Assembly (NCBI RefSeq): GCF_017301635.1
Contig: NZ_CP071091.1
Location: forward strand, 7,184,501 to 7,248,500
Reading direction: 5' to 3'
From: Myxococcus landrumus
GTDB taxonomy: Bacteria > Myxococcota > Myxococcia > Myxococcales > Myxococcaceae
DNA length: 64,000 nt
In this document: positions 1,971 through 23,206 of the stretch, piece after piece
Position numbering within the stretch: the stretch's first letter is position 1
Layout of the letters: the number at the start of each line of letters is the position of its first letter
Translations under genes and position numbers: made by a program
Notes under the pieces: model-generated
Database searches by the model: none
What the model was told of the DNA's origin: nothing
What the model saw: the letters and a program-made list of their open reading frames with translations, nothing else

Positions 1971-2064
1971 TCATAGTCACGTTTATCGCCGCGCAGCATG
2001 TAGTGCCATTGGTGTAGCCCCCATTTCAATCGGACAGGTCCCAACGCATAGGACCAGCCTAGGA

Positions 2065-3293: not shown

Positions 3294-3327
3294 CCGTGTC
3301 CGATTTGACGGGGGCAACTCCAGCCAT

Positions 3328-4924: not shown

Positions 4925-6328
4925 ATGTCACCGCTAAACCTGCCCACGCCATCCAAGGAAGCGCCACGCCCTCTGCGCCTCCCGGGTGGACCGAAGCTGG
5001 AGTCGTTCTCCCTGGAGCTGAGGACCGTCACGCCCATCCTTGGTGGCGCGCCTGTTCCGCGTCAGTTGCCCACCGTGGATGTCATCCGCGCTCCCTCCCT
5101 GCGAGGCCACCTGCGCTTCTGGTGGCGCGCACTCCACGGCCATGCCTACAGCGATGCATCCCGGCTCGACTTCGCGAAACGTGAGCGAGACCTGTGGGGC
5201 GGGATGAGCCTGGGCAAGGAGGAGCCTCGGCGCTCCCTGGTGTCGCTCTGTGTGAGTGGCGTCAGCGATGCGAGCCCAGACCGCGCTTCCATCCATCCGA
5301 GCGAACCCTCGTTCTACGCACTCTGGCCCACGCGAAATGGCGACGGAGACGCACCCTCGCCGAGGTGGAACCCAGGGCTCCGGTTCACCCTCGAAGTCCG
5401 CGCCCCGGAGGGTGTGCTCATGCAGGAGGTTCGCAACGCCTTCCGCGCATGGGTCCTCTTCGGCGGCTACGGCTCGCGGACTCGCAGGGGCTGTGGCTCG
5501 GTGACACTGGTCGACCCGAAGGAGCGCGAATCGTGGCTGCCCAAGGACGCGTCCCGAGCCGAGCTGTGCCGCCTCTTTGGTGACCTGCCGTTCCTGCGCC
5601 CCGACCTCGCCGGCGAGCCGCGAGACCTGCCGCTGTTGCGAGGTGCTCGGCTCTATCGCGGCCATCGCGGTGAGTCGAACTCCAGCGGCAACGAAGCCTG
5701 GCTGCAGGCGTTGGGCTGGCTGCGTGACTTTCGCCAGGGCACCGCGGGCGCGCCCGATGACCGTCCGAGGAACCCTGCTCCCGACGACGACAAGAAGCGG
5801 GCGCGGCGCTCCAATTGGCCGGAGGCGGACAAGATTCGCCACCACGCGAGGCCGGGTCCGCGCGCCTACCCCGAGGAGCATGTGCCTCGTGAGCAGTACA
5901 CGCGGAGCCCCGCGTGGCCTCGCGCGGGTTTCGGACTGCCCATCGTCTTCCACTTCCAACAAAAGAAGAGGGGCACGGCCAAGGAGTTCTACAAACCGGC
6001 CGAGCCCGAGGGTGTCCAGCTCCAGTGGGTCATGGACCAGGAGCGGGAGGCTCGGGACAGGCTCGCCTCTCCGCTCATCGTCAAGGCGATGCCGCTCGCC
6101 AACGGGCGCTTCGAGCCCATCGCGCTGTGGCTCGAGCGTGGCTATCCCCAGGGGGGCAAGGTCGTCATGGTGCAGTCGAACCGTCTCATCGAGGCGACGC
6201 GCGCGTCGTTCGACACGCTTCACGCCAGCGACGACAAGCCCCTCTTCAAACGCTTGCGAGACGCGAAGTCGCTGCGCGACGTGTTCTTCACCTGGCTGAG
6301 TGACACGCGAAAGGCGCGGGAGGTCTAG
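4925..6328 (+). CDS. cmr1: Cmr1, type III-B RAMP (Cas7-group) protein
   Basis: Cmr1 is a Cas7-like subunit near the 3' end of the crRNA in the Cmr effector complex, which binds target RNA. The N-terminus (LELRTVTPILGGA, residues 27-39, then RAPSLRGHLRFWWRALHG) is the family signature. A glycine-rich loop LFGGYGSRTRRGCGSV follows near residue 180. At 467 residues it is longer than many Cmr1 proteins, with extra sequence in a charged middle region (about residues 270-320). It is the first gene of cmr1-cas10-cmr3-cmr4-cmr5-cmr6, spaced 3 bp from cas10. The ATG at 4925 follows GAGGTGAG. Confidence 0.95.
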   Translation: MSPLNLPTPSKEAPRPLRLPGGPKLESFSLELRTVTPILGGAPVPRQLPTVDVIRAPSLRGHLRFWWRALHGHAYSDASRLDFAKRERDLWGGMSLGKEEPRRSLVSLCVSGVSDASPDRASIHPSEPSFYALWPTRNGDGDAPSPRWNPGLRFTLEVRAPEGVLMQEVRNAFRAWVLFGGYGSRTRRGCGSVTLVDPKERESWLPKDASRAELCRLFGDLPFLRPDLAGEPRDLPLLRGARLYRGHRGESNSSGNEAWLQALGWLRDFRQGTAGAPDDRPRNPAPDDDKKRARRSNWPEADKIRHHARPGPRAYPEEHVPREQYTRSPAWPRAGFGLPIVFHFQQKKRGTAKEFYKPAEPEGVQLQWVMDQEREARDRLASPLIVKAMPLANGRFEPIALWLERGYPQGGKVVMVQSNRLIEATRASFDTLHASDDKPLFKRLRDAKSLRDVFFTWLSDTRKAREV

Positions 6329-6331
6329 GTC

Positions 6332-8173
6332 ATGGCAACACAATCCCAAGTGCTTGTCCTCAAGGTGGGCCCCGTGCAGGGCTTCATCAGCCAGTCCCGC
6401 CGCACGCGAGACCTCTGGTTCGGCAGCCATCTGCTCTCCCAGGTGAGTCGCGCGATGGCGCGCTCCCTCCAGGCGTCAGGCGCCGAGCTCATCTTTCCTC
6501 ACCCGGAGCAGCTCCAGGGGCCGACGTCCGGACCTGAGTGTGTCGGGAAGGAGGACGCCGACACGCCGAAGGGATTTCCCAACAAGGTGCTCGCCGTCGT
6601 GACAGGCGACCCGGAGTCCATCGCGAGGGCTGCACGCACGGCCGCGAGGGACGCCTTGTTCAAGGCCTGGGAACGGGTGCGCGACAAATGCGGGGGCCTG
6701 TTCGCCGAGGGCGCCGACGCCTGGGCCAACGAGCAGCTCGAGACCTTCCTGGAGTTTCACGCGGCTTGGGTGCCTCAAGGAGAAGGTGGTTACGCGGTGG
6801 CACTCGAAGAGGCCGAGGCGCTGCTGGAGGCACGCCGGGCGCTGCGTGAGTTCAAGGCTTGGGCGCAGCTTGTTCCCGCTGGCACTCACAAGTCGAGCCT
6901 CGATGGAGGCCGACCCTCGGTGCTGCGCGGAAAGCGGTCCAAGGGCGGTGAGTGGAAGGGGCTGCGAATCGGCGAGCGCGAGGAATTGGATGCGCTCGGC
7001 TTGCTCAAGCGCGCGGGGGGAGACCCGGGGCAGTTCGTCCCCGTGCCGAGCATCGGGCTGGCGGCATGGCTGGAGACGGCGAGCAAGGAGCACAACCGGG
7101 AGCTCTCCAACCTTCGTGGGGCCTGCTCGGATGGCGGGTTCACCAAGGTCCATCGGACGGACCTGTCGTGGGTCAACGCCTTCCCCTTCGACGGACAGGT
7201 CCTTTTTCCCGAGCGAGTGCTGCCCTGCTTCGAGGAGTGGAGCGACGGGGGAGACCGCAAGAGCGTCCAGCGCGAGTCCGAGCGCTTCACGGCGGGCGCC
7301 GTTCAACCGCTGCTCGATGTCATGGGCGTCGCGCCCTATCCCTATGTGGCGTGTCTCTGCGCGGACGGCGACAACATGGGGCAGGCCCTGCGCGAGCTCG
7401 CGGTCCACGGAGGCATCGAGGCTCACAGGAGCGTCTCCAGGGCCCTCGCGAACTTCACTTCGGAGGCGAAGGACATCGTTCAGTCCCGGTTCCGAGGGAT
7501 GCTCGTCTACGCGGGCGGTGACGATGTGCTCGCCTTCGTGTGTCCGCCGGATGCCGTCGCGTGTGCTCGCGAGCTGGCGTCTGCCTTTCAGCGCCACCTG
7601 AAGCCCGCCATCAACGGCGCCGTCAAGGAGCTGCCGACGCTCTCGGTGGGACTTGGGATTGGCCATGTGCTGGAGAGCCTGGGGCAGCTCCTGAGTCTGG
7701 GGCGACAGGCGGAGAAGGCCGCGAAGAACGCGGGACGCAACGCGCTGGCCATCCTCCTGGCGAAACACGCGGGCCGTGAGCGGCTGTGGACCTCGAGCTG
7801 GGTGAATCCCGTTGAGCCCGTGGGGCGGCTCGCACAGGACATGGCGTTGCTGTCCTCCGGCCGTCTGCCTTTGAGCAAGGTGCACGAGGTCGAGGCGATG
7901 TCGCGCCGATTCGCCGCGGACGTCGCGGACTCGCACTCGAAGGAACAGGCGGAAGTTCTCGTGGACGAGGTGCGGCGCATCCTGTCGCGAGCTGAAGCGG
8001 GGCGGCGGGAGGACCCGATGTCACTTGCTGACGTGGGACTGGAGGACCTGTCGACGTCGGATGGGCGAAAGGCTCACGCGAAGCTTCAGGAGTGGGTGTC
8101 TCGAGTGCTCGTGGCGGAGACGTTGGAGCGCGCCGGTCGGAAGTTGGAGCCCAGGAAGGGTGGTGAGGGATGA
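6332..8173 (+). CDS. cas10: Cas10/Cmr2 lacking the HD nuclease domain
   Basis: This is the large subunit of the type III-B complex. On target RNA binding, the palm domains of Cas10 make cyclic oligoadenylate messengers. The protein starts directly with the palm-1 entry motif VLKVGPVQGFISQSRRTRDLWFG-type sequence at residues 9-30, so the N-terminal HD DNase domain of many Cas10 proteins is absent. Two acidic motifs are intact: DGDNMGQ (345-351) and GGDD (395-398). At 613 residues it fits an HD-less architecture. DNA cleavage by Cas10 is therefore unlikely, whereas signalling should be possible. A GGGAGG lies before the ATG, and the gene overlaps cmr3 by 4 bp. Confidence 0.95.
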   Translation: MATQSQVLVLKVGPVQGFISQSRRTRDLWFGSHLLSQVSRAMARSLQASGAELIFPHPEQLQGPTSGPECVGKEDADTPKGFPNKVLAVVTGDPESIARAARTAARDALFKAWERVRDKCGGLFAEGADAWANEQLETFLEFHAAWVPQGEGGYAVALEEAEALLEARRALREFKAWAQLVPAGTHKSSLDGGRPSVLRGKRSKGGEWKGLRIGEREELDALGLLKRAGGDPGQFVPVPSIGLAAWLETASKEHNRELSNLRGACSDGGFTKVHRTDLSWVNAFPFDGQVLFPERVLPCFEEWSDGGDRKSVQRESERFTAGAVQPLLDVMGVAPYPYVACLCADGDNMGQALRELAVHGGIEAHRSVSRALANFTSEAKDIVQSRFRGMLVYAGGDDVLAFVCPPDAVACARELASAFQRHLKPAINGAVKELPTLSVGLGIGHVLESLGQLLSLGRQAEKAAKNAGRNALAILLAKHAGRERLWTSSWVNPVEPVGRLAQDMALLSSGRLPLSKVHEVEAMSRRFAADVADSHSKEQAEVLVDEVRRILSRAEAGRREDPMSLADVGLEDLSTSDGRKAHAKLQEWVSRVLVAETLERAGRKLEPRKGGEG

Positions 8174-9390
8174 GTCAGGAATGCTTCGTACTGCTGCCTC
8201 GCGACGGGTTGTCCGTGAAGGACGGGCGCGGCTGGTACACGAGTGAGGTGGGGCGGGGGTACTCCCATCCGTGGCCGTTGCCCACGACGGTGAGGGGAGC
8301 TCTGCGCGCGGCTTGGGGGCAGGACCTCATGACCACTCAGCCTGGCGTGAGGATGACGCCCGAGGAGTGGGAACAGCGCTCGGCCGGCGTGAAGCTGACG
8401 CGCTTCGTTGCCCTGCGGCGCTCCTTGGCCGAGTCCTCGTTCAAACAAGCGCACCGGATGTGGCCGTTCCCCGCCGATGCGGTGTTGGTGGGGGGCGAGA
8501 AGGGGGCTGTCGGGCGGGTGGAGCAGCTGTTGCCTCGTCGTCCCGCGACGGGGCGGGCCGCGACCACCCTGGGGCCCGATGAGGACGCGGCGCGCGAGGG
8601 GCTATGGCACCCGCGCTGGGCCTCGAAGGGAAAGCCCGCCCCGGCACCTCGCTTCTGGTCCGAGGCGGAGATGGTCCGCTGGCTCTTGGGCCACGACGTC
8701 GCCATCCCGAGAGAGCTCAGTCCCGAGCAACGCACGGACGTGCACGTCTCCATCCACCCCGACCGACAGACGGCGGAGGACACGATGCTGCACTCGCGCC
8801 AGGTCGTGGAGTTGCTGCGACTGGAGCGCGAGGGAGAGACCGCGCCGCGTGCCGTGGAGTGGGCGCTGGGCCTGTGCTGCGAGCAGCCGACGCGAGATTC
8901 GGTTCGTGGCTTCCCTTCGGGCGTGTTGGGCCTGGGTGGACGCAGGCGCCTGACGAACGTGGAGCCTGTGACGCCAGACCTGTTCGCCTGCCCTCCGGAG
9001 TTCCAGCCGAAGGGGACGAAGGGGCTCCGGTTGGTGTTGGCGACGCCCGCGAGCTTCGTGCGGGGCTGGCTCCCGGACGGCTTCGAGCAGGACGGTGCGG
9101 TGTACGTGGGCACGCTGCCTGGAGTCACGGGGCCGGTGGTGCTGCGGGCCGCGCTGGTGCCTCGGGCTCAGGACGTGTCCGCGTGGGACATGGTGAAGCG
9201 GGAGCCTCGGCGGACGCGGCGATGGGTGCCCGCGGGTGCTGTCTATTTCTTCGAGAAGCAGCGCGGTGAGGACTTCACCGCGGAAGAGCTGCGCGCGTTG
9301 TGGCTGGCCTCGTGGGGCGGCGGCCATGAGGAAGCGCTCGGGCAGGTGCTGCCCGGTGTCTGGACACCGCCCCCTGCGTCTGGAGCCTGA
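8170..9390 (+). CDS. cmr3: Cmr3, type III-B Cas5-group protein
   Basis: Cmr3 is the Cas5-like subunit that holds the 5' handle of the crRNA and contacts Cas10. The N-terminus (PRDGLSVKDGRGWYTSEV, residues 10-27) and the following PWPLPTTVRGALRAAWG are the Cmr3 signature, similar to PRDPLFFRDG-type starts in homologues. The C-terminal third (PAGAVYFFEK near 350) is the second RRM-like half. The length, 406 residues, is normal. Its ATG overlaps the cas10 stop as ATGA, implying translational coupling. Confidence 0.93.
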   Translation: MSQECFVLLPRDGLSVKDGRGWYTSEVGRGYSHPWPLPTTVRGALRAAWGQDLMTTQPGVRMTPEEWEQRSAGVKLTRFVALRRSLAESSFKQAHRMWPFPADAVLVGGEKGAVGRVEQLLPRRPATGRAATTLGPDEDAAREGLWHPRWASKGKPAPAPRFWSEAEMVRWLLGHDVAIPRELSPEQRTDVHVSIHPDRQTAEDTMLHSRQVVELLRLEREGETAPRAVEWALGLCCEQPTRDSVRGFPSGVLGLGGRRRLTNVEPVTPDLFACPPEFQPKGTKGLRLVLATPASFVRGWLPDGFEQDGAVYVGTLPGVTGPVVLRAALVPRAQDVSAWDMVKREPRRTRRWVPAGAVYFFEKQRGEDFTAEELRALWLASWGGGHEEALGQVLPGVWTPPPASGA

Positions 9391-9393
9391 GCC

Positions 9394-10329
9394 ATGGAAA
9401 GCCGAGCCTATCTGCTGCAAGCCCTGTCGCCCCTGCACGTGGGGACAGGTCGGAGTGTGGGAGTCATCGACCTGCCGCTGATGCGGATGCGCGCCACGGG
9501 CATCCCCATCGTTCCCGGCTCATCGCTCAAGGGCGTGCTGCGTGACTCGCGCAAGCACGACTCGGACAAGGCGCGGAGTGATGCCATCTTCGGACCTCGG
9601 CGCGAGAAGCCCGGTCCCGAAGGGGACCAGCCTGGTGAGTACGCGGGGGCGCTGGTGGTGGGGGATGCGCGACTGCTCGCGCTCCCCGTGCGCGGCTTCG
9701 TGGGCACGTTCGCGATGGTGACGTCGCCGCTGCTGCTGGCGCTCGCCCGTCGGGACTGGGGCGGTCGCATGGGTGGCGGCGAGGTGCCGGGGCCGGTGGC
9801 CCCACTTGCGAAGTACCAGGCGCGTGTCGCCTCGCTGAAGAACAGCGCCTGTCTCTATCGCCACGATGGGCAGCCTCGGGTCTACCTGGAGGACCTGGAC
9901 CTGGAAGTGGAGAACAAGGACGACAGCGTGCTCGCCTCCTGGGCCGAGGTGCTCGGTCGCGCGCTTCCCTCGGAGGAGCGCGACATGCTCATGCGCCGGC
10001 TGGTGCTCGTGGACGACGAGACGATGTCCTTCCTCTGGGAGACGGCGACGCAGGTGGACACCCGCGTGAGCATCAACCCCGAGACGGGCACCGCCGCGCA
10101 GGGACAGCTCTGGACCGAGGAGAGCCTGCCCGCGGAGACGCTGCTGATGGGCGTGATGGCCGCCACGCGGGCCTGGCACCCCGAGCGCAAGTTGGAGGCA
10201 GGGGAGGTGCTCTCCGAGGCCCTGGGTGGGCCCGGGACGATGCTGCAGCTCGGTGGCAAGGCGACGGTGGGACGTGGCTGGTGCCGGCTCCTGTCGTGGC
10301 AGAGCGGTGGTTCGGAGGGGCGGCGATGA
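9394..10329 (+). CDS. cmr4: Cmr4, type III-B Cas7 backbone RNase
   Basis: Cmr4 forms the helical backbone along the crRNA and cuts bound target RNA at 6-nt intervals. The protein (311 residues) has the signature LSPLHVGTGRSVGVIDLPLM, then GIPIVPGSSLKGVLRD. Asp26 in the VGVIDLP motif corresponds to the known catalytic aspartate (Asp26 in Pyrococcus furiosus). The segment FATVTSPLLL-like (FAMVTSPLLLALARRDW) and the C-terminal LQLGGKATVGRGWC glycine loop are also typical. Target RNA slicing should be functional. It lies 3 bp after cmr3 and overlaps cmr5 by 4 bp. Confidence 0.95.
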   Translation: MESRAYLLQALSPLHVGTGRSVGVIDLPLMRMRATGIPIVPGSSLKGVLRDSRKHDSDKARSDAIFGPRREKPGPEGDQPGEYAGALVVGDARLLALPVRGFVGTFAMVTSPLLLALARRDWGGRMGGGEVPGPVAPLAKYQARVASLKNSACLYRHDGQPRVYLEDLDLEVENKDDSVLASWAEVLGRALPSEERDMLMRRLVLVDDETMSFLWETATQVDTRVSINPETGTAAQGQLWTEESLPAETLLMGVMAATRAWHPERKLEAGEVLSEALGGPGTMLQLGGKATVGRGWCRLLSWQSGGSEGRR

Positions 10330-10748
10330 ACGGCCAGACGCGAGAGCAGCTTCGGGCGATTCATGCGTATCAGTGTGTGAGGGCTGTCCCGCCGGGGATT
10401 CGCGCGGACTACAAGCCACGCGTGCATGGATTGGGTGCCTCGGTCCTTCGGGATGGGTTGGCCGCGGCGCTCACGTTCCTCGAGCGGGAGAAGAAGGCGG
10501 ATGAGCGGGCGCCGCTGGAGACGAACGCCGCGATGCGGCTGTTGAGCGACCTCGCGAAGTCGCTCGAGAAGGCGCCCATCCCCGAGCTGAAGCGGCGGTT
10601 GGCCACGATGTCCCTTCCGGACGCCGTGAGGGAGTTGAAGCTGGAGGAATACATGCTGGCCACGCGCGAGACGCTGCGGCTGGTGGTGTGGTTCCGCCGC
10701 GCGGTGCAGGCCACGTTCAAGGACTCGGAGCAGACTCGTGCGCAATGA
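10326..10748 (+). CDS. cmr5: Cmr5, type III-B small subunit
   Basis: Cmr5 is the small alpha-helical subunit that lines the target RNA inside the Cmr filament. The ATG at 10326 overlaps the cmr4 stop (ATGA), so the longer frame from 10281 is not used. The 140-residue product is mostly helical (RAIHAYQCVRAV, GLGASVLRDGLAAALTFLERE) and has the gene position and size of Cmr5. Sequence conservation in this family is low, so the call rests partly on position between cmr4 and cmr6. Confidence 0.88.
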   Translation: MNGQTREQLRAIHAYQCVRAVPPGIRADYKPRVHGLGASVLRDGLAAALTFLEREKKADERAPLETNAAMRLLSDLAKSLEKAPIPELKRRLATMSLPDAVRELKLEEYMLATRETLRLVVWFRRAVQATFKDSEQTRAQ

Positions 10749-11817
10749 CCTGAGGGGACTGTCGCAGGCGCTCGAGGATGGCCCCGCGCACGCGGGGCTG
10801 GCCCATGAGCGCTACGCTCCCGTGAAGGACGACCTCGAAGAGAAGGAGTCTCCTTGGCGCAAGTGGTTGCAGTGGATGGAGGAGGCCCGCGTCCCCCGGG
10901 ACTACACCGTTGCCTTCTCCCGCTGGCGCGAGTCCCTTCGGCAGTGGCACACCGCCTCCGTCACGGTGCGAGCGGCGAGCCGCCTTCTCGTGGGCCACGG
11001 GAATGCCTCGCCCACGGGGGTGGGGTTGACGCTGCACCACACGTGGGGCGTGCCGGTGATTCCGGGCTCCTCGCTGAAGGGCGTGCTGGCGGCCTATCTG
11101 CGCGCGGCCTTCGAGCCCGCGGAGGTGGAGGTCGCGTGTCGAAGGCTGTTCGGCGTGCCGGGAGACAGGCTCACGGGACAGGGCGCGACCACGGGAGAGG
11201 TCATCTTCCACGATGCGCTCTGGGTGGCATCTCCCGTCAAGAAGGAGGAGAAGACTCCGTTGATGCTGGCGCGCGACGTGCTGACCGTGCATCAGAAGAC
11301 CTGGTACGGCGGCGCCACGGCCTGGCCGAATGACTACGACTCTCCGAACCCCGTGGCCTTCCTGTCGGTCCGGCCCGAGGGGCGTTTCCTCCTGGCGTTG
11401 AGCGTGGCCCCGGGTGCGGATGCGGAGTCCGTCACGTTGCTGCGCTGGGCCGGGGACCGGCTCTGTGAGGCTTTGAGTCAGTGCGGCGTGGGGGGCAAGA
11501 CGTCCGCGGGGTACGGGCGGCTGACTGCCGAGGGTGAGGTGGTGGTCAATCCTCCTCGTGCGGTGTCTCGACCTTCGCCGGTGCGGGATGAGTTCAAGAC
11601 GTGGTTGGACGCGCAGCGTGAGGCGAAGACGGAGCAGCGCAAGGTCCTCGAGGACTTCGAGTCGGAGTGGCTGAGGCGGTTGTCCACGCTACCGCTCGGG
11701 GCTCGCGAGGAGTGTGCGCAGGCGATGCGCACGTTGGTGAAGAAGAACCCCAAGCTCCAGGAGCGCCGTGATGACTTGCTTGCGCGACTGCTCGCCCCTT
11801 CGACGAGCAATCACTGA
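10738..11817 (+). CDS. cmr6: Cmr6, type III-B Cas7-group protein
   Basis: Cmr6 is a Cas7-like subunit that joins the backbone near the 3' end of the crRNA, next to Cmr1. The 359-residue product has NASPTGVGLTLHHTWGVPVIPGSSLKGVL (residues about 87-115), close to the PGSSLKG motif shared with Cmr4, and a C-terminal VGGKTSAGYGRL glycine-rich loop. The start is GTG at 10738, overlapping cmr5 by 11 bp. The C-terminal 100 residues are charged and probably helical. It is the last gene of the operon; its end overlaps the opposite-strand gene at 11811. Confidence 0.93.
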   Translation: MRNDLRGLSQALEDGPAHAGLAHERYAPVKDDLEEKESPWRKWLQWMEEARVPRDYTVAFSRWRESLRQWHTASVTVRAASRLLVGHGNASPTGVGLTLHHTWGVPVIPGSSLKGVLAAYLRAAFEPAEVEVACRRLFGVPGDRLTGQGATTGEVIFHDALWVASPVKKEEKTPLMLARDVLTVHQKTWYGGATAWPNDYDSPNPVAFLSVRPEGRFLLALSVAPGADAESVTLLRWAGDRLCEALSQCGVGGKTSAGYGRLTAEGEVVVNPPRAVSRPSPVRDEFKTWLDAQREAKTEQRKVLEDFESEWLRRLSTLPLGAREECAQAMRTLVKKNPKLQERRDDLLARLLAPSTSNH

Positions 11818-12683
11818 GGTGTCGAGGAATCGTCGGGGGGCCCGGAGAGGAGGGCCTCGAAGAGCGCCTCCTGCGCGGCATCCGGGTGGGTGAAGGCGAG
11901 GGTGTGAATCTGCTTCAGCGCCGATTCCCCCTTGGCGATGAGGTGCTCCTCTGCCTCGCGAGGCACGGTGAGTCCCCGGGTGGCGGCGAAGGTCATCAGC
12001 GCCTGGGCGTGAAAGCGCGTCCGAGCGAAGGCAATCAGTTCATCCCAGAAAGCGGACTCCGTCATGATGTTCCTCAAGGAAGGGGTGAGCCGCTGGATTC
12101 CGAAGCGGCGTGACGTCAGGGTACCGAGGACCACGAGCAAATCCATCTGCTCGTCGGCGGAAAGCTCCTTGGCTTCTCGAATCCGAGCCTCCGCCCAATC
12201 CGCCCGCTCGGGCCCCGCTCGTGCATCCAGGACGGAGAGGGGCAGTAATCCCGTGGCGGACTGGAGCGCTGGCTGGGTGAAGTCGACTTCCCAAAGCCTG
12301 ACCACCAAGAAATCCAAGGTGAGCACTGGCTGCCCACGACAGCGCATGACGTAGGGCGGGCGTACACCTTCTGCTTCGGGGACCACCAGGACAACCACAG
12401 GCAGCACAGGGAGACCTTCACGCAGATGGACCCGCACCGTGTAGTCCAGGAGCCTCCGCATGAAATGCGGGTCTGACTGCGCTTGGAGCTCGACTTCCAG
12501 CACGAAGCGCTCCGAGGACGTCTCCACGACGAGCACCGCGTCCGCGCGGCGCTCCGACTGAGGAAGGCTGGTATCGGCCGCACGGACAAAAGTGGGGGCA
12601 TCCGAGCCGAAGAGCAGACGCAGCAGGTGTGCCGGATGCGCCTGCACCAGACGGCGGAGAACGAGGTCGAAGATGGAACCCAT
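11811..12683 (-). CDS. Rpn/PDDEXK_2-like nuclease-fold protein
   Basis: This 290-residue protein resembles the Rpn / PD-(D/E)XK transposase-derived family. Visible parts are ADAVLVVETSSERFVLEVELQ (residues about 47-67, the acidic beta-strand pair with a final Gln as in Rpn proteins), then RRLLDYTVRVH and a hydrophobic strand PVLPVVVLVVPE. The C-terminal third is helical, as in DUF4351-like relatives. It lies between the cmr operon and the cas6 cluster but on the opposite strand, overlapping the cmr6 end by 7 bp, so it is not part of either operon. It may be a passenger gene or an accessory nuclease; no CARF domain is visible. Confidence 0.55.
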   Translation of the reverse strand: MGSIFDLVLRRLVQAHPAHLLRLLFGSDAPTFVRAADTSLPQSERRADAVLVVETSSERFVLEVELQAQSDPHFMRRLLDYTVRVHLREGLPVLPVVVLVVPEAEGVRPPYVMRCRGQPVLTLDFLVVRLWEVDFTQPALQSATGLLPLSVLDARAGPERADWAEARIREAKELSADEQMDLLVVLGTLTSRRFGIQRLTPSLRNIMTESAFWDELIAFARTRFHAQALMTFAATRGLTVPREAEEHLIAKGESALKQIHTLAFTHPDAAQEALFEALLSGPPDDSSTPQ

Positions 12684-12787
12684 GGAGGATGCGCAAGGTA
12701 GTCAGTGGGTCTGACATCCATGGGGTAGGGAAGTCATCACAGGGAAACAAGAGCGGCGGTGGTCGCCGCGATGATTTGAGGATGAAT

Positions 12788-13417
12788 ATGTCTATGATTG
12801 ATCTTGTCTTCCCCGCGCGTGGCGGCGGGGTTCCGCTGGACCATGGCTATGTCCTGTTCTCCGCGCTCTCCCACCGGCTCCCGGGATTGCACGAGCGCAA
12901 GGATGTCGGAATCTTCAACCTGCGCGGCACCCAGGCGCGTGGGAAGTCACTCCACGTGGGGAATGGGACGCTGCGCATCCGCTGCCCCACGGAGGCCTTG
13001 CCTCTGTTCCTGCCGCTCAACGGCGCGGCCCTCACCGTCGCCGATGGTGAGGTCACCTTGGGGATTCCTCGCGTCTTCCCGTTGGATGCACCCGTGTCGC
13101 TCTCCTCACGGCTCGTCACCTTCAAGCACGCCATCGACGACGCGACGTTCCGCGCGTCCGTGCGGAGAGCCCTCGCGGAGCTGGGCTGCGAAGGGACGAT
13201 GCATGTGGGCCGTAGGCGTGTGCTGGCCATCGCGGGAAAGAAGGTCATCGGATACGCCCTCACGCTGAGCCACCTGTCCGCGCGCTCGTCCTTGCTCATC
13301 CAGGAGCACGGGCTCGGCGGCCGGCGTCACATGGGTTGCGGACTCTTCCTGCCCACGCGTCTGCGGGTGGCGGCGGGACTGCGGATGGAGGACGCACAGC
13401 CGGAGTGCTTCGCGTGA
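12788..13417 (+). CDS. cas6: Cas6, MYXAN-type (Cmx6) crRNA endoribonuclease
   Basis: Cas6 cuts the repeat RNA and leaves the 8-nt 5' handle on the crRNA. The 209-residue product matches the MYXAN Cas6 family: DLVFPARGGGVPLDHGYVLF at the N-terminus, SRLVTFKHAID in the middle and the glycine-rich C-terminal loop LGGRRHMGCGLF. Three in-frame ATGs lie at 12782, 12788 and 12794. GAGG at 12778-12781 sits six bases before 12788, so that start is preferred. There is no other cas6 in the window, so this enzyme probably matures crRNA for the type III-B complex. Its GTGA overlap with the next frame indicates an operon. Confidence 0.88.
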   Translation: MSMIDLVFPARGGGVPLDHGYVLFSALSHRLPGLHERKDVGIFNLRGTQARGKSLHVGNGTLRIRCPTEALPLFLPLNGAALTVADGEVTLGIPRVFPLDAPVSLSSRLVTFKHAIDDATFRASVRRALAELGCEGTMHVGRRRVLAIAGKKVIGYALTLSHLSARSSLLIQEHGLGGRRHMGCGLFLPTRLRVAAGLRMEDAQPECFA

Positions 13418-14117
13418 GCACCCCCTCCCGCCTCCTCGCCAAGAACGCATGGGCGGGAGCTGCGCCCGTGTCGCTCGAGGCGCATCTGCTCGATACCGAG
13501 GCCACCGCTGTCGCGCTGTTCGCGGGCGTGGAGACTCGGAGGGCGTCGTCATGCGAGGCGGCGACGCGCATGCGTGAGGACGTTCCTTGCCTGCGGATCG
13601 CGGTGGGGCGCGTGGGGGCTCCACCGGAGCTGGCCAGTCTCTATCAGCAACTGCACACATATCCGGTGGGGCCCTATGGCAAGACGCTCAAGGCTCGTAC
13701 CCATGGGGCGAAGCACTGGATTGTCGCGAGCTGCTCGTGGACCTGCGGGCTGTCATCGGCGTGGAGTGCGCGGAGACGGAGCTGCTGGAGGCGGTTCGCT
13801 TGGGGCTTCGTGGCGCGGGGAGTGGAGGCCGGTATGGACTGCCCTTCGCTGGGGACAACAACCTCTTGTTCGACTCGGTGGAGGTGGTGGCGGCTCCTCC
13901 GCTGGCTTATTGGTACTCGCGGCTGGAGCCGGGGGAGGAGACTCGGGCAGGGTCGTATCGGATGACCGTGGGGATTGACCGCGAGGATTCAAGCCGCACG
14001 CGTCGCGAGTTGATGGCCCCGCTGGAGGCTCCGACGCTCGAACCCCCTGAGTCCGCGTGGAACTGGACACCCGGGTCCCCACGGGCTCGGGTTGGTGCGG
14101 TGGATTCGGTTCATTGA
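13414..14117 (+). pseudogene. Fused remnants of cas3 (start) and MYXAN cas5/devS (end)
   Basis: A GTG at 13414 overlaps the cas6 stop. The first residues (SRLLAKNAWAG, VSLEAHLLDTEATAVALF) resemble the N-terminus of a Cas3 HD domain, with the HxxxD start of the domain. From about 13590 the same frame turns into Cas5/DevS-like sequence (APPELASLYQQLHTYPVG, then THGAKHWI). It loses frame near 13730 and continues in the next frame as RELLVDLRAVIGVE, YGLPFAGDNNLLFDSVEV and IDREDSSRTRRELMAPL to 14117. The rest of cas3, cas8, cas7 and the start of cas5 appear deleted, followed by a one-base frame change. Family matches are from memory of these proteins. Confidence 0.6.
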
Positions 14118-14226
14118 GAGGGAAAGGGTAGAGCGCTGCAGTGGGAATCGAGAGTCTGGAATTGCGCTCACTCCGGTTGTGTCTGTTGTTTGCTGAGGCG
14201 GGAGCCTTTCATTGGGGGGCGGTTCC

Positions 14227-15888
14227 ATGAGTCCTGAAACCATGAGTCCTCGACCTGTTGTGGTCGAGCCGACGCTGCGTGTCCATGCGCTGCATGCGCT
14301 CGCGTACTGCGAGCGGCTGTTCTACCTGGAGGAAGTCGAGGAGGTGCGGGTGGCGGATGCGGCCATCTTCGCCGGCAGACGCCTGCATGCGCGGCTGGAA
14401 CAAGAGGGCGAGCGGGTGGAGGTGGAGGTCTCCAGCGAGGTGTTGGGCCTGCATGGCAAGGTCGATGCCGTGCGCGAGCGCGCGGGGACCTTGGTGGTTC
14501 ATGAGCACAAGCGCGGTCGACATGCGTCTGGGGAAGGTGGACCGGAGGCGTGGCCGGGAGATCGGCTTCAAGTCGGGGCGTATGCGCTGTTGGTGGAGGA
14601 GTGTTTTCCGGGGACCGAGGTGGAGTGCCGGGTCCGTTATCATCAGACCGAGACGACGGTTTGCTTTCCGTTGGATGAGCCGCTTCGCCAGGACGTGGTG
14701 GCGGCGGTTGCTCGGGCTCGGCTCTTGCGTGCCTCGGGGATGCGCCCTCCCGTGACGACGGAGGAGCGTAAGTGTGCTCGCTGCTCTTTGGCACCGGTGT
14801 GCCTGCCGGAGGAGGAGCGGATAGGGAGTGGCGCGGAGCGGCCTCGGTTGTTTCCGGAGGATGATGTTCGACAGGTCCTGCATGTGACGACGGCGGGGAG
14901 TCGGGTGGGGCGGGCCTCCGATGAGTTGGTGGTGACGCCGCCTGAAGGGGAGGGCGAGCCCGTGCGGCTCCCTGTGCGGACGGTGTCGGCGCTGGTCTCG
15001 CATGGCGCGGTGCAGGTCAGCTCGCAGGTGTTGGCGCTCTGCGTGGAGAGGGACGTGGGGGTGCATTGGTTCACTTCGGGAGGGCGTTACCTGGGGGGAC
15101 TTGGAGGAGGGGGAGGAAATGTGCAGCGGCGGCTGCGCCAGTTCGAGGCGTTGCGCCAGGAGGCTGTGTGCCTGGGGTTGGCTCGGCGGCTGGTGGCCGC
15201 GAAGCTGGAGGGGCAGCTCCGGTTCCTGCTGCGAGCTTCTCGTGGGGATGTGGACGCTCGCGAGGTGATGGGTTCGGCGGTGCGTGACTTGCGTGCGCTG
15301 TTGCCTGGCTGCGCGGAGGCGGCGTCACTCGACGTGCTGCGGGGCCTGGAGGGGGCCGGGGCCGCGCGCTACTTCGGGGTGCTGCCGTATCTGCTGGGGG
15401 ATGATGTGGATCCTCGGCTGCGCTTCGATGGGCGGAACCGGCGTCCTCCGCGGGACAGGTTCAATGCGGTCCTCGGGTTTTTGTATGGGTTGGTGCACCG
15501 CGAGGTGGAGGCGGCGATTCGTTCGGTGGGGCTGGATGTGGCGTTTGGGTTCTTTCATCAGCCGAGGAGCTCGGCGGGGCCGCTGGGATTGGATGTGATG
15601 GAGCAGTTCCGTGTGCCCCTGGCGGACATGCCGCTGGTGGCGTCGTTGAATCGTCGGGCATGGGATGCGGAGGCGGACTTCGAGGTGACGCCCGAGCATG
15701 TATGGCTCAGCAAGGCGGGGCGCGCGAAGGCGATTGAGCTGTATGAGCGACGGATGCGGGAGACGTGGAAGCACAACGTCCTGGGGTACTCGCTCAGCTA
15801 TGCGCGCCTGGTGGAGCTGGAGGTGCGGCTCCTGGAGAAGGAGTGGACGGGGACGCCGGGGCTGTTCGCGACGTTCCGCCTGAGGTGA
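14227..15888 (+). CDS. cas4-cas1: Cas4-Cas1 fusion, spacer integrase with prespacer nuclease
   Basis: The N-terminal 195 residues are Cas4: four iron-sulfur cysteines (Cys28, Cys183, Cys186, Cys192), the RecB nuclease residues Asp80 and Glu93-x-Lys95, and QVGAY. Residues about 205-553 are Cas1, the integrase that inserts new spacers beside the leader. Its metal ligands are Glu375 (GLEGAGAARYF), His444 (GFFHQPR) and Glu459 (LDVMEQF). All key residues are present, so adaptation should work. The fusion is typical of MYXAN and some other type I loci. ATG 14227 is preferred over the TTG at 14212. The gene lies 3 bp upstream of cas2. Confidence 0.95.
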   Translation: MSPETMSPRPVVVEPTLRVHALHALAYCERLFYLEEVEEVRVADAAIFAGRRLHARLEQEGERVEVEVSSEVLGLHGKVDAVRERAGTLVVHEHKRGRHASGEGGPEAWPGDRLQVGAYALLVEECFPGTEVECRVRYHQTETTVCFPLDEPLRQDVVAAVARARLLRASGMRPPVTTEERKCARCSLAPVCLPEEERIGSGAERPRLFPEDDVRQVLHVTTAGSRVGRASDELVVTPPEGEGEPVRLPVRTVSALVSHGAVQVSSQVLALCVERDVGVHWFTSGGRYLGGLGGGGGNVQRRLRQFEALRQEAVCLGLARRLVAAKLEGQLRFLLRASRGDVDAREVMGSAVRDLRALLPGCAEAASLDVLRGLEGAGAARYFGVLPYLLGDDVDPRLRFDGRNRRPPRDRFNAVLGFLYGLVHREVEAAIRSVGLDVAFGFFHQPRSSAGPLGLDVMEQFRVPLADMPLVASLNRRAWDAEADFEVTPEHVWLSKAGRAKAIELYERRMRETWKHNVLGYSLSYARLVELEVRLLEKEWTGTPGLFATFRLR

Positions 15889-15891
15889 GCC

Positions 15892-16185
15892 ATGGCCGAG
15901 CCGAGACGGTGGTACTTGATTACCTATGACATCCGGGACCCGAAGCGATGGCGCAAGGTGTATGCGTTGTTGAAGGGGTACGGAGAGTGGTTGCAGCTCT
16001 CCGTGTTCCGGTGCTTGTTGACGGACCGGGACCGGGAGCAGCTCCGGTGGGAGCTGGCACGGCGGATGGACCCCGTGGATACCTTGTTGGTGATTGGATT
16101 GTGCGGTGGCTGTGTGGAGCGGGTGCGGGCTATCAACCCCGGGGAGGACTGGCCGGAGGAGCCACCGCCGTTCCGCGTGCTGTGA
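15892..16185 (+). CDS. cas2: Cas2, structural partner of Cas1
   Basis: Cas2 dimers bridge two Cas1 dimers in the spacer-integration complex. The 97-residue protein has the ferredoxin-like fold signature [18 protein letters not shown], with the conserved Asp13, then [13 protein letters not shown] and the terminal [12 protein letters not shown] strand. The start follows the cas4-cas1 stop by 3 bp, so the two are cotranscribed. The leader of array 2 begins directly after the stop codon. Confidence 0.96.
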
Positions 16186-16187
16186 GG

Positions 16188-16438
16188 CGCTGGACATTCA
16201 TGCACCTGCGCCTGGCGGAGGGGGCTTCAGTCGGAATCGGGTGAAAAGCTGAGGTCCGACGCGGGGTTGAGAGCTCTTTGACAGGTGAATAGGTGCTTGA
16301 ATGGGTAAAAGCCTTGGGATTTCAGGCAGTTGGAGAGGCGAGGACGCGTGGAGGATGCGGGAGATGGTTCGTAGGGTGGGGGTGCTTGAAAAGGGGGGGA
16401 CGTAAGTGGCTGGAGTTCCTTGCGAATTGAGCGGGGCT
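16188..16438 (+). promoter_or_regulatory. CRISPR array 2 leader
   Basis: This 251-bp segment runs from the cas2 stop to the first repeat and is homologous to 1112-1358. TTGACA at 16278-16283 lies 155 bp before the first repeat. The homology reaches back to the base pairs beside the cas2 stop codon. Leader 1 therefore looks like a copy of the post-cas2 leader that has lost its cas genes. Confidence 0.87.
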
Positions 16439-19400
16439 CCATGGCTCGCCCTGATGCCGGAAGGCGTTGAGCACTCAAGTCTTCTTTCTGTAGAAAATCG
16501 TGAGCGGGCCTCCATGGCTCGCCGTGATGCCGGAAGGCGTTGAGCACCGGTCGTTGTCCGTGAAGAATTCCCGCCAGTACTCCCATGGCTCGCCCTGATG
16601 CCGGAAGGCGTTGAGCACGCCGCAGAGCCCCCGGATACACCGGCCGCAATCAACCATGGCTCGCCCTGATGCCGGAAGGCGTTGAGCACCTGACGCGGGT
16701 GATGTCGCCAATCTTCGCTCCGACCATGGCTCGCCCTGATGCCGGAAGGCGTTGAGCACGCGGAGGGCGCGGCAATACGGCCTGCGCGAGGGCCCATGGC
16801 TCGCCCTGATGCCGGAAGGCGTTGAGCACAACAGGTACACGGGACTGAGTAAGGAGGAGATGGCCGGGACCATGGCTCGCCCTGATGCCGGAAGGCGTTG
16901 AGCACCAGGGCGGTTTTCAGGTCCGTCCGCATCTCTAGCCGTGGCTCGCCGTGATGCCGGAAGGCGTTGAGCACCGGCGGGCCGCTTCATCGACCGCTTG
17001 GACCCATCCATCCGTGGCTCGCCGTGATGCCGGAAGGCGTTGAGCACCGCTGCAATTGCGGCTGTCGTTCCATGCGCAGGTCGACCGTGGCTCGCCGTGA
17101 TGCCGGAAGGCGTTGAGCACCGTCGGCGTGGTCGGCAGCATGTTCTGGTACCTGAGCCGTGGCTCGCCGTGATGCCGGAAGGCGTTGAGCACTGGAGGCT
17201 GGTGACGGAGTGGGTGCCGCTGCGCTGGCCGTGGCTCGCCGTGATGCCGGAAGGCGTTGAGCACAGCAGAACGTCCATCACCGCGATCACCGCAAGGAAG
17301 ACCGTGGCTCGCCGTGATGCCGGAAGGCGTTGAGCACATGAGCGTCCAGTTCATCGTGCTGTCTCCCGAAGCCGTGGCTCGCCGTGATGGCCGGAAGGCG
17401 TTGAGCACAGCCGAGAGAGGACAGCTTCCTTCCCTTCGGTGACGACCCGTGGCTCGCCGTGATGCCGGAAGGCGTTGAGCACCGCCGAGAGCCGGAGCCA
17501 GTGCTCACCGCAGACGACCGTGGCTCGCCGTGATGCCGGAAGGCGTTGAGCACCACGAGCAGGCCAATCCAATCGTCGCTCTGCGGATCCGTGGCTCGCC
17601 GTGATGCCGGAAGGCGTTGAGCACGGCCGGGGGCTTTTTCGTGTCCGGAATTATAGGTAGCCCGTGGCTCGCCGTGATGCCGGAAGGCGTTGAGCACCCC
17701 AGGCCCGGGTCGGTGTGAGCGGCGAGCCAACGCCGTGGCTCGCCGTGATGCCGGAAGGCGTTGAGCACGAGGCGGAAGCCAGCGGCACGGCGCGCCGGCA
17801 TTCCGTGGCTCGCAGTGATGCCGGAAGGCGTTGAGCACTCACACATGAGCGCCCAGTTCCAGGCCGCGTCCTCCGCCGTGGCTCGCCGTGATGCCGGAAG
17901 GCGTTGAGCACGTCATTCGCTGGGTCAGAGGCCCCAACGCGAAGCCCGTGTGGCTCGCCGTGATGCCGGAAGGCGTTGAGCACTAGTAGAACTTGCCCTG
18001 GGGGCTGGACATGGTGAGGAGCGCCGCGGCGCGCCGTGATGCCGGAAGGCGTTGAGCACAAGAACTGTAGACTCATCATCCGAGGTGACGAAGCGCCCCC
18101 GTGGCTCGCCGTGATGCCGGAAGGCGTTGAGCACATGACCCGGCGCGCGGTGAGCTTGCGGTCGTACCGCTCCGTGGCTCGCCGTGATGCCGGAAGGCGT
18201 TGAGCACTTCATCATCCCGACGATGCGCTGAACGTTGCTCCTCCGTGGCTCGCCGTGATGCCGGAAGGCGTTGAGCACCATCCCTCCCTTCACGGGGGAG
18301 GTTCACGGCGAGCCCCGTGGCTCGCCGTGATGCCGGAAGGCGTTGAGCACCCATCTCCAGCTCCGGGTGCTTCTTGAGGAGGCTGCCGTGGCTCGCCGTG
18401 ATGCCGGAAGGCGTTGAGCACTGACTCCCACTCCGGCGCACTCACCGCGGATATCCGCCGTGGCTCGCCGTGATGCCGGAAGGCGTTGAGCACCCGTGCC
18501 CTCTTGGCCTTCTTGCTCCGAGTTTCTTTCCGTGGCTCGCCGTGATGCCGGAAGGCGTTGAGCACCGTTGAGGGTTGCTTGTCGTGCGCGCTGCCGACGG
18601 CGCCGTGGCTCGCCGTGATGCCGGAAGGCGTTGAGCACTACCCTTCGTACCGGCCTTGGGAGAGGGCACTCTGCCCGTGGCTCGCCGTGATGCCGGAAGG
18701 CGTTGAGCACCCCGCGCAGCACTTCAAGGACGTCCGCCAGGCTGATTCCGTGGCTCGCCGTGATGCCGGAAGGCGTTGAGCACTTGCCAGCAATCCCCAG
18801 GATGCTTGACGTAATGCCGTGGCTCGCCGTGATGCCGGAAGGCGTTGAGCACTCCTACTTGACCGCCACCTTGAAGCTCATCGTGGGCCGTGGCTCGCCG
18901 TGATGCCGGAAGGCGTTGAGCACGTGGTCCACCTGCTGCAGCACGGGACGGTCCCCGCTGAACCGTGGCTCGCCGTGATGCCGGAAGGCGTTGAGCACGA
19001 GCAGGGACTCATCCGCGAGTACATGGGGCCAGATGCGGTCCGTGGCTCGCCGTGATGCCGGAAGGCGTTGAGCACCTGGCGACGGCGCTCGGCATCCCGC
19101 TGCCCCCGAGCCCGGACCGTGGCTCGCCGTGATGCCGGAAGGCGTTGAGCACACGGGCGGAGACGGCAGGGTGTGAAACGACTGCATTCCCGTGGCTCGC
19201 CGTGATGCCGGAAGGCGTTGAGCACACGAGGAGGGGCCTCCCCACCCAGCCGTCCGTCGCCCGTGGCTCGCCGTGATGCCGGAAGGCGTTGAGCACCATC
19301 ACGTCTCCCCGAGAGCAACCTGAGAGTGTTTCCGTGGCTCGCCGTGATGCCGGAAGGCGTTGAGCACCTCTGAGCGGCCAAGACGCGCCACAGCCCTTCG

Positions 19401-21085
19401 GCCGTGGCTCGCCGTGATGCCGGAAGGCGTTGAGCACACGCGCGTACTGGTGGGCATCATCTGCCCGGTGCCGTGGCTCGCCGTGATGCCGGAAGGAGTT
19501 GAGCACGGCAGCACGTCGTAGCCGCTGTACCACCCCCCGTTGCCCGTGGCTCGCCGTGATGCCGGAAGGCGTTGGGCACATGTGGCTCTTGTTGGTGGAC
19601 TGCAGGGTTGGACTACCCGTGGCTCGCCGTGATGCCGGAAGGCGTTGAGCACTTGTGTTCTGCATGAGTACGAATTCCCAGACGCGCGCCGTGGCTCGCC
19701 GTGATGCCGGAAGGCGTTGAGCACCCCGAGTGGGCGTTTGCGACGGCCGGCTGGTTCTGCCGTGGCTCGCCGTGATGCCGGAAGGCGTTGAGCACAGGCC
19801 CTTGTAGCCGGTCACCCACTGCGCCGACTTCCCGTGGCTCGCCGTGATGCCGGAAGGCGTTGAGCACAGGCCCTTGTAGCCGGTCACCCACTGCGCCGAC
19901 TTCCCGTGGATCGCCGTGATGCCGGAAGGCGTTGAGCACGGGGTCTTCGGCGTCGACGTGCGGAGCTCCTGGATTCCCGTGGCTCGCCGTGATGCCGGAA
20001 GGCGTTGAGCACACGCCGAAGAGCCGGAGGTCCACGCCAGCGGCCGCCGTGGCTCGCCGTGATGCCGGAAGGCGTTGAGCACCCAGCACGCGCGGCCTTG
20101 TAGAGCGCCAGATGGACCGTAGCTCGCCGTGATGCCGGAAGGCGTTGAGCACTTGACGTGCGCGACCTGGTGCTCCGCAGTGATCTGCTCCGTGGCTCGC
20201 CGTGATGCCGGAAGTCGTTGAGCACGACAGGGAGCATGTGGGCCACGTTGTCCGTGAGCACCCGTGGCTCGCCGTGATGCCGGAAGGCGTTGAGCACAAG
20301 CGCCACATGCTCACCAAGGCGCTCGAGCTGACCGTGGCTCGCCGTGATGCCGGAAGTCGTTGAGCACTCAATCTGTTGCTGGCGCCCCTGGTTGACGCGG
20401 TCCACGTCGTGGCTCGCCGTGATGCCGGAAGGCGTTGAGCACTGGTCAGGGAGGGTAGGGCTACTCGGACGTGCACCGTGGCTCGCCGTGATGCCGGAAG
20501 GCGTTGAGCACCAGCCCGCGGCGTCCGGTGGGTCGGTTCGCTGGGCCGTGGCTCGCCGTGATGCCGGGAGGCGTTGAGCACCAGCCCGCGGCGTCCGGTG
20601 GGTCGGTTCGCTGGGCCGTGGCTCGCCGTGATGCCGGAAGGCGTTGAGCACCAGCCCGCGGCGTCCGGTGGGTCGGTTCGCTGGGCCGTGGCTCGCCGTG
20701 ATGCCGGGAGGCGTTGAGCACCAGCCCGCGGCGTCCGGTGGGTCGGTTCGCTGGGCCGTGGCTCGCCGTGATGCCGGGAGGCGTTGAGCACCGAGTGAAC
20801 GAGAGGGGGACGCCTTCGTGGTTGGAGTTGAACCGTGGCTCGCCGTGATGCCGGAAGGCGTTGAGCACCGCTTCTTGTGGTGTTCCACCACCGCCTTCGC
20901 ATCCGTGGCTCGTCGTGATGCCGGAAGGCGTTGAGCACCCTCCCAGGCCGGCAGACACGGGGAGAAGGCTCGCGGACCCCGTGGCTCGCCGTGATGCCGG
21001 AAGGCGTTGAGCACACGATGCCGATGGTGGCGCAGATGACCGAGGTTCGCCGTGGCTCGCCGTGATGCCGAAAGGCGTTGAGCAC
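16439..21085 (+). CRISPR. CRISPR array 2 (65 repeats, 64 spacers)
   Basis: I counted 65 repeats of 36 nt (one of 37 nt near 17373 with an extra G), with spacers mostly 33-38 nt. The first seven repeats begin CCATGG; six of them also have CCCTGATG. From the eighth on they begin CCGTGG with GCCGTGATG. The 3' half (GCCGGAAGGCGTTGAGCAC) is the same as array 1. Repeat substitutions cluster at the right end (for example near 20117, 20215, 20356, 20915 and 21071). One spacer occurs in two adjacent copies (19795-19900) and one in four adjacent copies (20510-20755). Direction is left to right. Confidence 0.97.
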
Positions 21086-21316: not shown

Positions 21317-22609
21317 ATGCGGTTGATGATGGTCGTTCTTGTGAGCCTTTGGGCAGTAGGGTGCGCTACCACCCGCGTGGTTCATCTGGATAGGGGGAAT
21401 GGTCAGCAAGTCGTTCACGAGTCGGTGGACGTCAAGCCCGTGGAGGTGAGCGAAGGGGAGTTCAAGTCGGCCCTCACGCGCCTCATTCTCGACCTGCGGA
21501 TGGATGTCGCGTTCCGGGAAGAGGAAGACGCGGACGCACGAGGTTGGGTGCGGTCCAGGACACTGCTCGCATCCTCGAAAGGGCTCGCGGCATCGGGTTC
21601 AGGGGGCTCTCCCGAGTCGCTGTCCGCGCGCATCTGCCCCGACGCGGATGACTGCTTGTCCTTGGTGGGTGGAACGGGGCTGACGTTCTCGCGAAAAGAT
21701 CGGACCTTGATGGCGCTTTCGTTCGCGCTCGACACGGTATGGGAGAGTGTCGAGGTGGAGGTGGGCAAAGTGCTGAACCCGGCGGCGCTCAAGGCGATGG
21801 TGACCTCGGCGGCGCTGGCGGTGTTCCTGACCATCACCCTACCCGAGCCCATCACCAAGGGCATCGCCGTGGCGCTGACAGCGGCGATGGTGGCCTACCT
21901 CGGCGTCGTGCCGGTCTGGGAGATAGGGCGCGGATTCATCCAGTTGTGGGATGACGCGGGAACGGCGATGAGCGTCATCGAACTACAAGACATTGGGCAT
22001 CGGTTCGGCCGGGTGTTGGGCGCGAACGGCACTCGTGTCCTGGTGTTGCTCGTGACGATGGCACTGGGAGGTAAAGGGGCGATGGCAGCCCAGGGCCCCA
22101 AGCTCCCTGGATTCGCTCAGGCTGCTGGCCGCGCCCAGGCCGAATCGGGATTCCAGCTCGGAGCGGCGATGACTGGTGGCATTACCTCCATCGCGTTGCC
22201 CGCCGCCGGAGTGCTCAACGTCGCGCTTGCTCCGGGAGCTGCCGCAGCTCTTGCAATGTACGGAGAGGGGCGGTATCCGGGTGACGCTGAAGGCCCGGTT
22301 CACCACATCTGCACAAACAAGAATCCCGTCTCTGATGCGACCGGCGGTCCTTGGACACCTGCTTGTGAGGAAATTTTCGAGAAGGCCGGTATGTCGCTGG
22401 AGGATGCCGCAAACAAGGTGCGGCTCAAGGGGCATGAGGGCCCTCATCCCGAATTCTATCACAATCAGGTCGTGACTCGCTTGCAGGCGGCTGTGCGCAC
22501 TTGCAGAACCACGGAGGCTTGTCGCATCAGGTTGCTGAATGAGCTCGCGAAGATTGCGGACGAATTGCTTTCGCCGGGCGCGGAGTTACGTGGCTTCATC
22601 GTGAAGTAG
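21317..22609 (+). CDS. SitA-like polymorphic lipoprotein toxin with AHH-type nuclease C-terminus
   Basis: SitA proteins are myxobacterial lipoprotein toxins passed between cells by outer-membrane exchange. This 430-residue protein has a lipoprotein signal ending AVGC (lipidated Cys16), a variable middle with hydrophobic helices (about 155-205 and 270-315), and a C-terminal toxin-like domain. The domain contains HHICTNKN, then GPWTPACEEIFEKAG and GHEGPHPEFYHNQV, the His-rich pattern of AHH/HNH-superfamily nucleases. The gene 9 bp downstream encodes a probable immunity protein. Lipidation and domain are read from sequence; transfer and toxicity are inferred. Confidence 0.72.
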   Translation: MRLMMVVLVSLWAVGCATTRVVHLDRGNGQQVVHESVDVKPVEVSEGEFKSALTRLILDLRMDVAFREEEDADARGWVRSRTLLASSKGLAASGSGGSPESLSARICPDADDCLSLVGGTGLTFSRKDRTLMALSFALDTVWESVEVEVGKVLNPAALKAMVTSAALAVFLTITLPEPITKGIAVALTAAMVAYLGVVPVWEIGRGFIQLWDDAGTAMSVIELQDIGHRFGRVLGANGTRVLVLLVTMALGGKGAMAAQGPKLPGFAQAAGRAQAESGFQLGAAMTGGITSIALPAAGVLNVALAPGAAAALAMYGEGRYPGDAEGPVHHICTNKNPVSDATGGPWTPACEEIFEKAGMSLEDAANKVRLKGHEGPHPEFYHNQVVTRLQAAVRTCRTTEACRIRLLNELAKIADELLSPGAELRGFIVK

Positions 22610-22618
22610 GAGGGGCGG

Positions 22619-23206
22619 GTGGAACGGAACTTCTATTGGGTGAACATAGGTGATGTACCCCAGTGGTACCTCTCGACACCGGTGCCTGCTTCTGGTGGAG
22701 CATTTGAGGAGCCATGGATGTTCGGAGAAGGGCAGTCCCTTCCTGTCCCTGGCGCCACCAAGGTTCGGGTGAGGAGTCCAGGCCCGAAACGCGCCTTCGT
22801 GTTTGCCGGAGTTGAACGCACACCCATCGTCAGCGAAGCCGTCGCGAACGTCTTCATGTCGCGTGCTCCCGACGATGTTCAGCTGTTTCCGCTGTCGGTC
22901 GAGGCGGAGTCCGAGCTGTACTTCATCGTCAATGCGGTCAAGGCCCCTGACTGTATTGATGAAGCCCGTTGCCGAGAGATTCAGCGGTATGCCGAGGACG
23001 ACCCCTTCCCTGAATATGCAGGGCAGTTCCGCTGGATTCAGGGCCTGCGCATTGACCCCGAGAAGACCGAGGGCGCGAATGTCCTGCGGCCCTTGAAGTT
23101 CAAGACTGCGTTCATCGTCTCGGAGGTGGTCAAGACCGCGCTCGAAGCGGTGGGGAATCTAGGCGTGTCGTTCGAGCGTGTGACCGAGCCCCCCGAGCTT
23201 CACTGA
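22619..23206 (+). CDS. imm11-like immunity protein (SitI-like)
   Basis: This 195-residue acidic protein has no signal peptide and begins with GTG after a strong AGGAGGGG. It lies 9 bp after the SitA-like toxin, the position of SitI immunity genes. Features such as FYWVNIGDVPQWYL at the start, RIDPEKTEGANVLRP and the C-terminal FKTAFIVSEVVKTALEAVG resemble the imm11 family common in myxobacteria. It probably binds and neutralises the toxin domain in the cytoplasm. The 3' end overlaps the convergent oxidoreductase gene by 7 bp. Confidence 0.65.
   Translation: MERNFYWVNIGDVPQWYLSTPVPASGGAFEEPWMFGEGQSLPVPGATKVRVRSPGPKRAFVFAGVERTPIVSEAVANVFMSRAPDDVQLFPLSVEAESELYFIVNAVKAPDCIDEARCREIQRYAEDDPFPEYAGQFRWIQGLRIDPEKTEGANVLRPLKFKTAFIVSEVVKTALEAVGNLGVSFERVTEPPELH

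Follow-up and report, generated by a model that had tools for sequence, protein, structure and literature searches.

Organization of the locus

The locus described here raises the question of how a type III-B effector came to share a CRISPR cluster with the processing and adaptation genes of a type I-MYXAN system whose own effector is represented just by a broken segment. It lies in what we call the window, namely the whole stretch of 64,000 nucleotides that was analyzed and whose positions serve as coordinates, which belongs to a closed genome of 10.37 Mb (G000). On the plus strand the order is a split array, cmr1 to cmr6, a gene on the opposite strand, cas6, the scar, cas4-cas1, cas2, a leader-like sequence and an array of 65 repeats; scar remnants apart, every cas and cmr gene left in the window is full length. 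The effector operon, cmr1-cmr2(cas10)-cmr3-cmr4-cmr5-cmr6 (4925–11817, plus strand), belongs to type III-B, as all six genes, Cas10/Cmr2 included, have open frames and are recognized either by NCBIfam (TIGR01894, TIGR02577, TIGR01888, TIGR02580 and TIGR01898) or, in the case of cmr5, by Pfam (Cas_Cmr5, 1.4e-17), and cmr2 has a GGDD motif (YAGGDD). No DevS or type I cas3 is found elsewhere in the G000 genome, and among the families searched Cmr is the only CRISPR effector found in it, as the first-pass annotation had supposed.

The genes on either side of the scar are intact, again as had been described: cas6 (cmx6; 12788–13417, plus strand), coding for the crRNA-processing endonuclease, matches TIGR02807 over its full length and above the cut-off (2.9e-64), and the MYXAN-type cas4-cas1 fusion (14227–15888, plus strand) matches TIGR03983 (1.4e-162, above the cut-off) and TIGR00372 (2.1e-21). 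An intact cas2 follows (15892–16185, plus strand; TIGR01573, 1.5e-11). The gene between cmr6 and cas6 (11811–12683, minus strand) has weak Rpn/DUF2887 similarity; since just 108 bp of its end are left in the related genome G014, this gene was lost there, and a reading of 11918–12740 as an insertion was rejected on the same grounds. Directly past the downstream array lie an AHH-type nuclease gene and then an Imm11 immunity gene (21317–23203).

The scar between cas6 and cas4-cas1

The segment 13414–14117 had been read at first as a cas3 start joined to a cas5/devS end, and this reading is borne out by comparison with G014. The cas3 remnant comprises the first ~38 codons of the gene (13414–13528, plus strand), its start codon sharing the sequence GTGA with the stop codon of cas6, and is collinear with the intact cas3 of G014: the DNA from 12740 to 13525 is 92% identical to that of G014 and continuous into that gene. 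It is through this collinearity that the cas3 end was identified, because the proximal 37 amino acids of the scar are too short for an HMM and give no match. The cas5/devS remnant (13520–14117, plus strand; codons ~42–243) matches TIGR02586, the profile of type I-MYXAN Cas5/DevS (4.1e-17, profile positions 91–183 of 183), below the curated cut-off as befits a truncated gene, whereas the intact cas5 of G014 scores above it with 113.5 bits; from 13520 onward the DNA is 97% identical to this intact cas5, and thus the match is far beyond chance.

The two remnants meet in frame at 13520–13528 (plus strand), where 4,942 bp are missing in respect to G014, and most of the 13414–14117 segment is therefore Cas5. 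Compared with G014 the junction has a microhomology of 6 bp (TCGCGG), the chance of at least 6 bp being ~0.0025 at the local base composition; a length of 9 bp, TCGCGGGCG, is reached only with an ancestral left side like that of G008, another relative. The codon phases of cas3 and cas5 agree, and the first product of the deletion was therefore an in-frame fusion. The one-base frame change that had been placed near 13730 proved to be partly correct: the frame does shift there, into the +3 frame, but it does so through a separate deletion of 10 bp at ~13723 and not at the cas3/cas5 junction. Pairwise alignment with G014, which carries an extra GTCCCCGTGC at this point, places the site at 13722–13726 (plus strand), flanked by a GTC repeat. 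This was a second event, which broke the frame of the cas3'-cas5' fusion. The window thus holds a type I-MYXAN remnant, with Cas5/DevS sequence, a MYXAN-type cas6 and the cas4-cas1 fusion, and not a functional type I-MYXAN system, of whose effector there remain just the beginning of cas3 and a broken cas5.

An intact relative with both effectors

In G014 the same cas6 and cas4-cas1 enclose an intact cas3-cmx8-cas7-cas5 operon. The matches found by DNA search of relatives, up to 13528 and from 13520 onward, lie ~4.9 kb apart in this genome, and the intervening genes are recognized as cas3_core (158 bits), Cmx8 (665 bits), DevR-like Cas7 (70 bits) and the DevS mentioned above. The fact that remnants of both end genes persist in the window indicates a loss rather than an insertion in G014, and the base-level alignment supports the earlier proposal of a single internal deletion that removed the type I-MYXAN effector and kept cas6 and cas4-cas1. 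G014 also carries a complete Cmr operon at the same position, 97% identical to that of the window, beside the intact type I effector: the ancestor therefore had both effectors, the DNA-targeting type I and the RNA-targeting III-B, and lost the former. The suggestion that the cluster is "now paired with Cmr" after a switch of effector type finds no support in this.

The rpoB tree, (G008,(G000,(G009,G014))), places G014 nearer to G000 than G008 is, with modest branch support inside the G000/G014/G008 group (0.76–0.82). The dS of cas6 to G014 (0.24, against 0.04–0.14 for neighbouring genes) hints at recombination across the locus.

Repeated loss of the type I effector

Comparison of the locus across related genomes, a check set beforehand, yielded the intact operon of G014 and no conserved chimera. 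A distinct deletion is found in G008 (Myxococcus), with both breakpoints elsewhere and cas3 joined out of frame to the final 46 codons of cas5, and a third one in G016 (Myxococcus), with other breakpoints again and a further internal loss within cas3; Cmr is intact in both genomes. As the breakpoints differ among G000, G008 and G016, the losses are independent even without the support of the tree, and relatives have separately lost the same type I effector at least twice more. In a genome of another genus, G095, the gene after cmr1-6 and cas6 is a cas4-cas1 whose Cas4 part is truncated, and cas3-8-7-5 are absent.

In a survey of 96 genomes of the family, MYXAN Cas1 was found above the cut-off in 17. 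Cmr is present in each of the four among them that have no intact type I effector (G000, G008, G016 and G095); in one, G113, the type I effector was found and Cmr2 gave no match. G009, sister to G014 in the rpoB tree, has no Cmr2 match and no MYXAN Cas1 or DevS above the cut-off. A tentative generalization, to which we give less than an even chance, would be that dual I/III loci of the Myxococcaceae repeatedly and selectively shed the type I effector, leaving an autonomous III-B system whose spacers are chosen by a type I-style Cas4-Cas1.

Affiliation of Cas6

In the Cas6 tree the protein of the window groups with the copies of G016, G011, G005, G004, G013, G008 and G014 in a Cmr-linked clade (bootstrap 100), and the genome survey gave no DevS match at all in G011, G005 and G004. 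Moreover, cmr1-6 plus cas6 form a conserved unit in several genera, and in G011, G019a and G033 cas6 comes directly after cmr6 with no type I-MYXAN module adjoining. The existence of this unit away from type I-MYXAN, together with the position of the protein in the tree, means that Cas6 is not a leftover of type I alone: it is a Cmr gene as much as a type I gene.

In G016 and G011 (L037-L038, L044-L045) the Cmr proteins are ~41–58% identical to those of the window and Cas6 71–78%, and the Cas4-Cas1 of G016 is 82% identical; these values suggest that in both genomes the type III module was exchanged for another, next to a cas6 that remained stable. In G006 (L066-L067) the cas6 beside cmr6 has decayed to a fragment and that of the dev-type locus is intact, as one would expect were a single Cas6 to serve the two systems.

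Arrays and selection on the remaining genes

The downstream array (16439–21085, plus strand) has 65 repeats of 36 nt ending in TTGAGCAC. The upstream one (1359–4378, plus strand; 9 + 15 repeats with the same core) is split in two by an IS3-type transposase pair (1963–3293; HTH_Tnp_1 and rve). In all arrays of the window the repeats share this core, the same ending and the same predicted hairpin, the latter being no more stable than that of shuffled sequence. The leader-like sequence before the downstream array (16273–16332, plus strand) is 83% identical to 1195–1254, before the upstream array. Within the downstream array four identical spacer-repeat units stand in tandem (20512–20755), and another spacer-repeat pair is duplicated (19796–19903).

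No two of the window, G014, G008 and G016 have a spacer in common, despite the 97% identity of Cmr in G014; the arrays have thus turned over, be it before or after the deletion. Self-targeting as a trigger of the deletion was rejected, as no spacer of the window or of these three relatives matches the deleted operon well, and the search for phage targets gave weak matches only (best E = 8e-4). A spacer at the trailer end (21015–21051) is similar (89% over 37 nt; E = 0.01) to the Myxococcus phage Mx4.

Between G000 and G008, both of which have lost the type I effector, the dN/dS values are 0.15 for cas6, 0.08 for cas4-cas1, 0.02 for cas2 and 0.17–0.22 for the cmr genes, averages over the time before and after the deletions. 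These values point to continued purifying selection on cas6, cas4-cas1, cas2 and cmr1-6. Given this selection on the genes that were kept and the complete turnover of spacers, the likely surviving system is Cmr supplied by the shared Cas6 and arrays, in which Cmr would load crRNAs from the local arrays, as the shared repeat core, the linkage to cas6 and experiments in M. xanthus suggest. Adaptation may still be working in G000.

Proposed history and alternatives

Taking together the observed deletion and its polarity, the dual-effector locus of G014, the independent losses, the conserved remaining genes and the shared repeat core, we propose that a dual-effector ancestor underwent one 4.9-kb deletion of type I genes and later the 10-bp break, what remains being most likely a type III-B system; we assign to this reading a probability of about 0.87. 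The ancestral order would have been cmr1-6, cas6, cas3-cmx8-cas7-cas5, cas4-cas1, cas2 and array, with a single Cas6, a single adaptation module and repeats shared by both effectors. After the split from G014, a single deletion with 6–9 bp of microhomology at its ends, which probably arose by end joining or slippage, would have removed the type I interference genes and produced the in-frame cas3'-cas5' fusion, which the 10-bp deletion would then have broken. In the resulting system Cas4-Cas1 and Cas2 would add spacers, Cas6 would cut array transcripts so as to leave the 5' tag TTGAGCAC, and Cmr would take the guides so processed against transcribed targets.

A type I-only locus that lost its effector and gained Cmr in its place would also account for a window in which Cmr is found today but a type I effector is not. 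This is very improbable, considering that both effectors stand in the same order in the closest intact relative, G014, that the cmr1-6 and cas6 unit is conserved in several genera, and that the Cas6 of the window is found among Cmr-linked copies. An even smaller chance is given to the fusion being a functional small protein instead of debris. Indeed, its junction is in frame and the frame from 13414 stays open for 183 codons, but past ~13723 the codons no longer follow the Cas5 frame, and 5 of the 8 codon differences between the remnant and G014 are non-synonymous. Furthermore, as G008 joins the two genes out of frame and G016 does so at other points, no chimera is conserved.

The loss of type I might also have been the first step in the decay of the whole locus, the other CRISPR genes being neutral leftovers. 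Losses are common in the genus, where G009 has neither the Cmr2 match nor the above-cutoff MYXAN Cas1 and DevS, they are termed stochastic in passages of PMC11237760, and the upstream array is interrupted by an IS element. We nevertheless regard such a decay as rather unlikely: all cas and cmr frames that were kept are open, their dN/dS values lying well below 1, arrays of 65 and 24 repeats are present along with the leader-like sequence, and in four separate genomes the type I effector alone is missing. The history of a dual-effector ancestor that lost one effector is thus preferred, and under it sister species that differ in carrying the type I effector, but have Cmr, Cas6 and adaptation genes in common, constitute a natural experiment on whether III-B can live on spacers picked by a type I-style Cas4-Cas1, and on the burden that the type I effector places on its host. 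It also means that genes labelled with a type I subtype, such as cas6 and cas1, can be part of a type III system.

Comparison with known systems

The M. xanthus dev (MYXAN) operon shares with the ancestral locus the order cas6, cas3, cas8, cas7, cas5, cas4-cas1, cas2 and array. The likeness to dev that had been invoked at first thus stands for the genes of the interval, as found in G014, but not for the module itself, which has the Cmx8 version of the large subunit and a Cas3 that is ~33% identical to those of dev-type loci.

Passages of Hu et al. (2024, PMC11237760) already report the independent loss of III-B modules and of myxobacterial type I modules, as well as the repair of CRISPR cuts in M. 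xanthus by deletions at microhomologies; they also show that III-B immunity in strain DK1622 of this species depends on transcription, and infer that it draws on the B-type array. In passages of Silas et al. (2017, PMC5576922), III-B is described as able to use type I-F crRNAs and a chimeric III-B/Cas6f locus is mentioned. Neither the type of event nor the sharing of guides is therefore new. The Marinomonas sp. MWYL1 locus of the latter work, with III-B, Cas6f and a I-F array, likewise places III-B beside a type I processing enzyme and array without a type I effector; in those passages neither a scar nor an intact ancestor is mentioned, and its parts look as if brought together by transfer, whereas the window lost its type I effector from a dual locus and has a Cas6 and repeats that were already linked to Cmr in relatives. 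In the MxI-B (type I-MYXAN)/III-B loci of Hu et al. the losses described in those passages, as judged from context, are of whole subtypes; in contrast, here one effector was cut out from inside a shared operon, leaving a scar resolved at base level, and this recurred with different breakpoints. It is this base-level scar, together with the recurrent excision of a single effector from within a shared operon, that is new.
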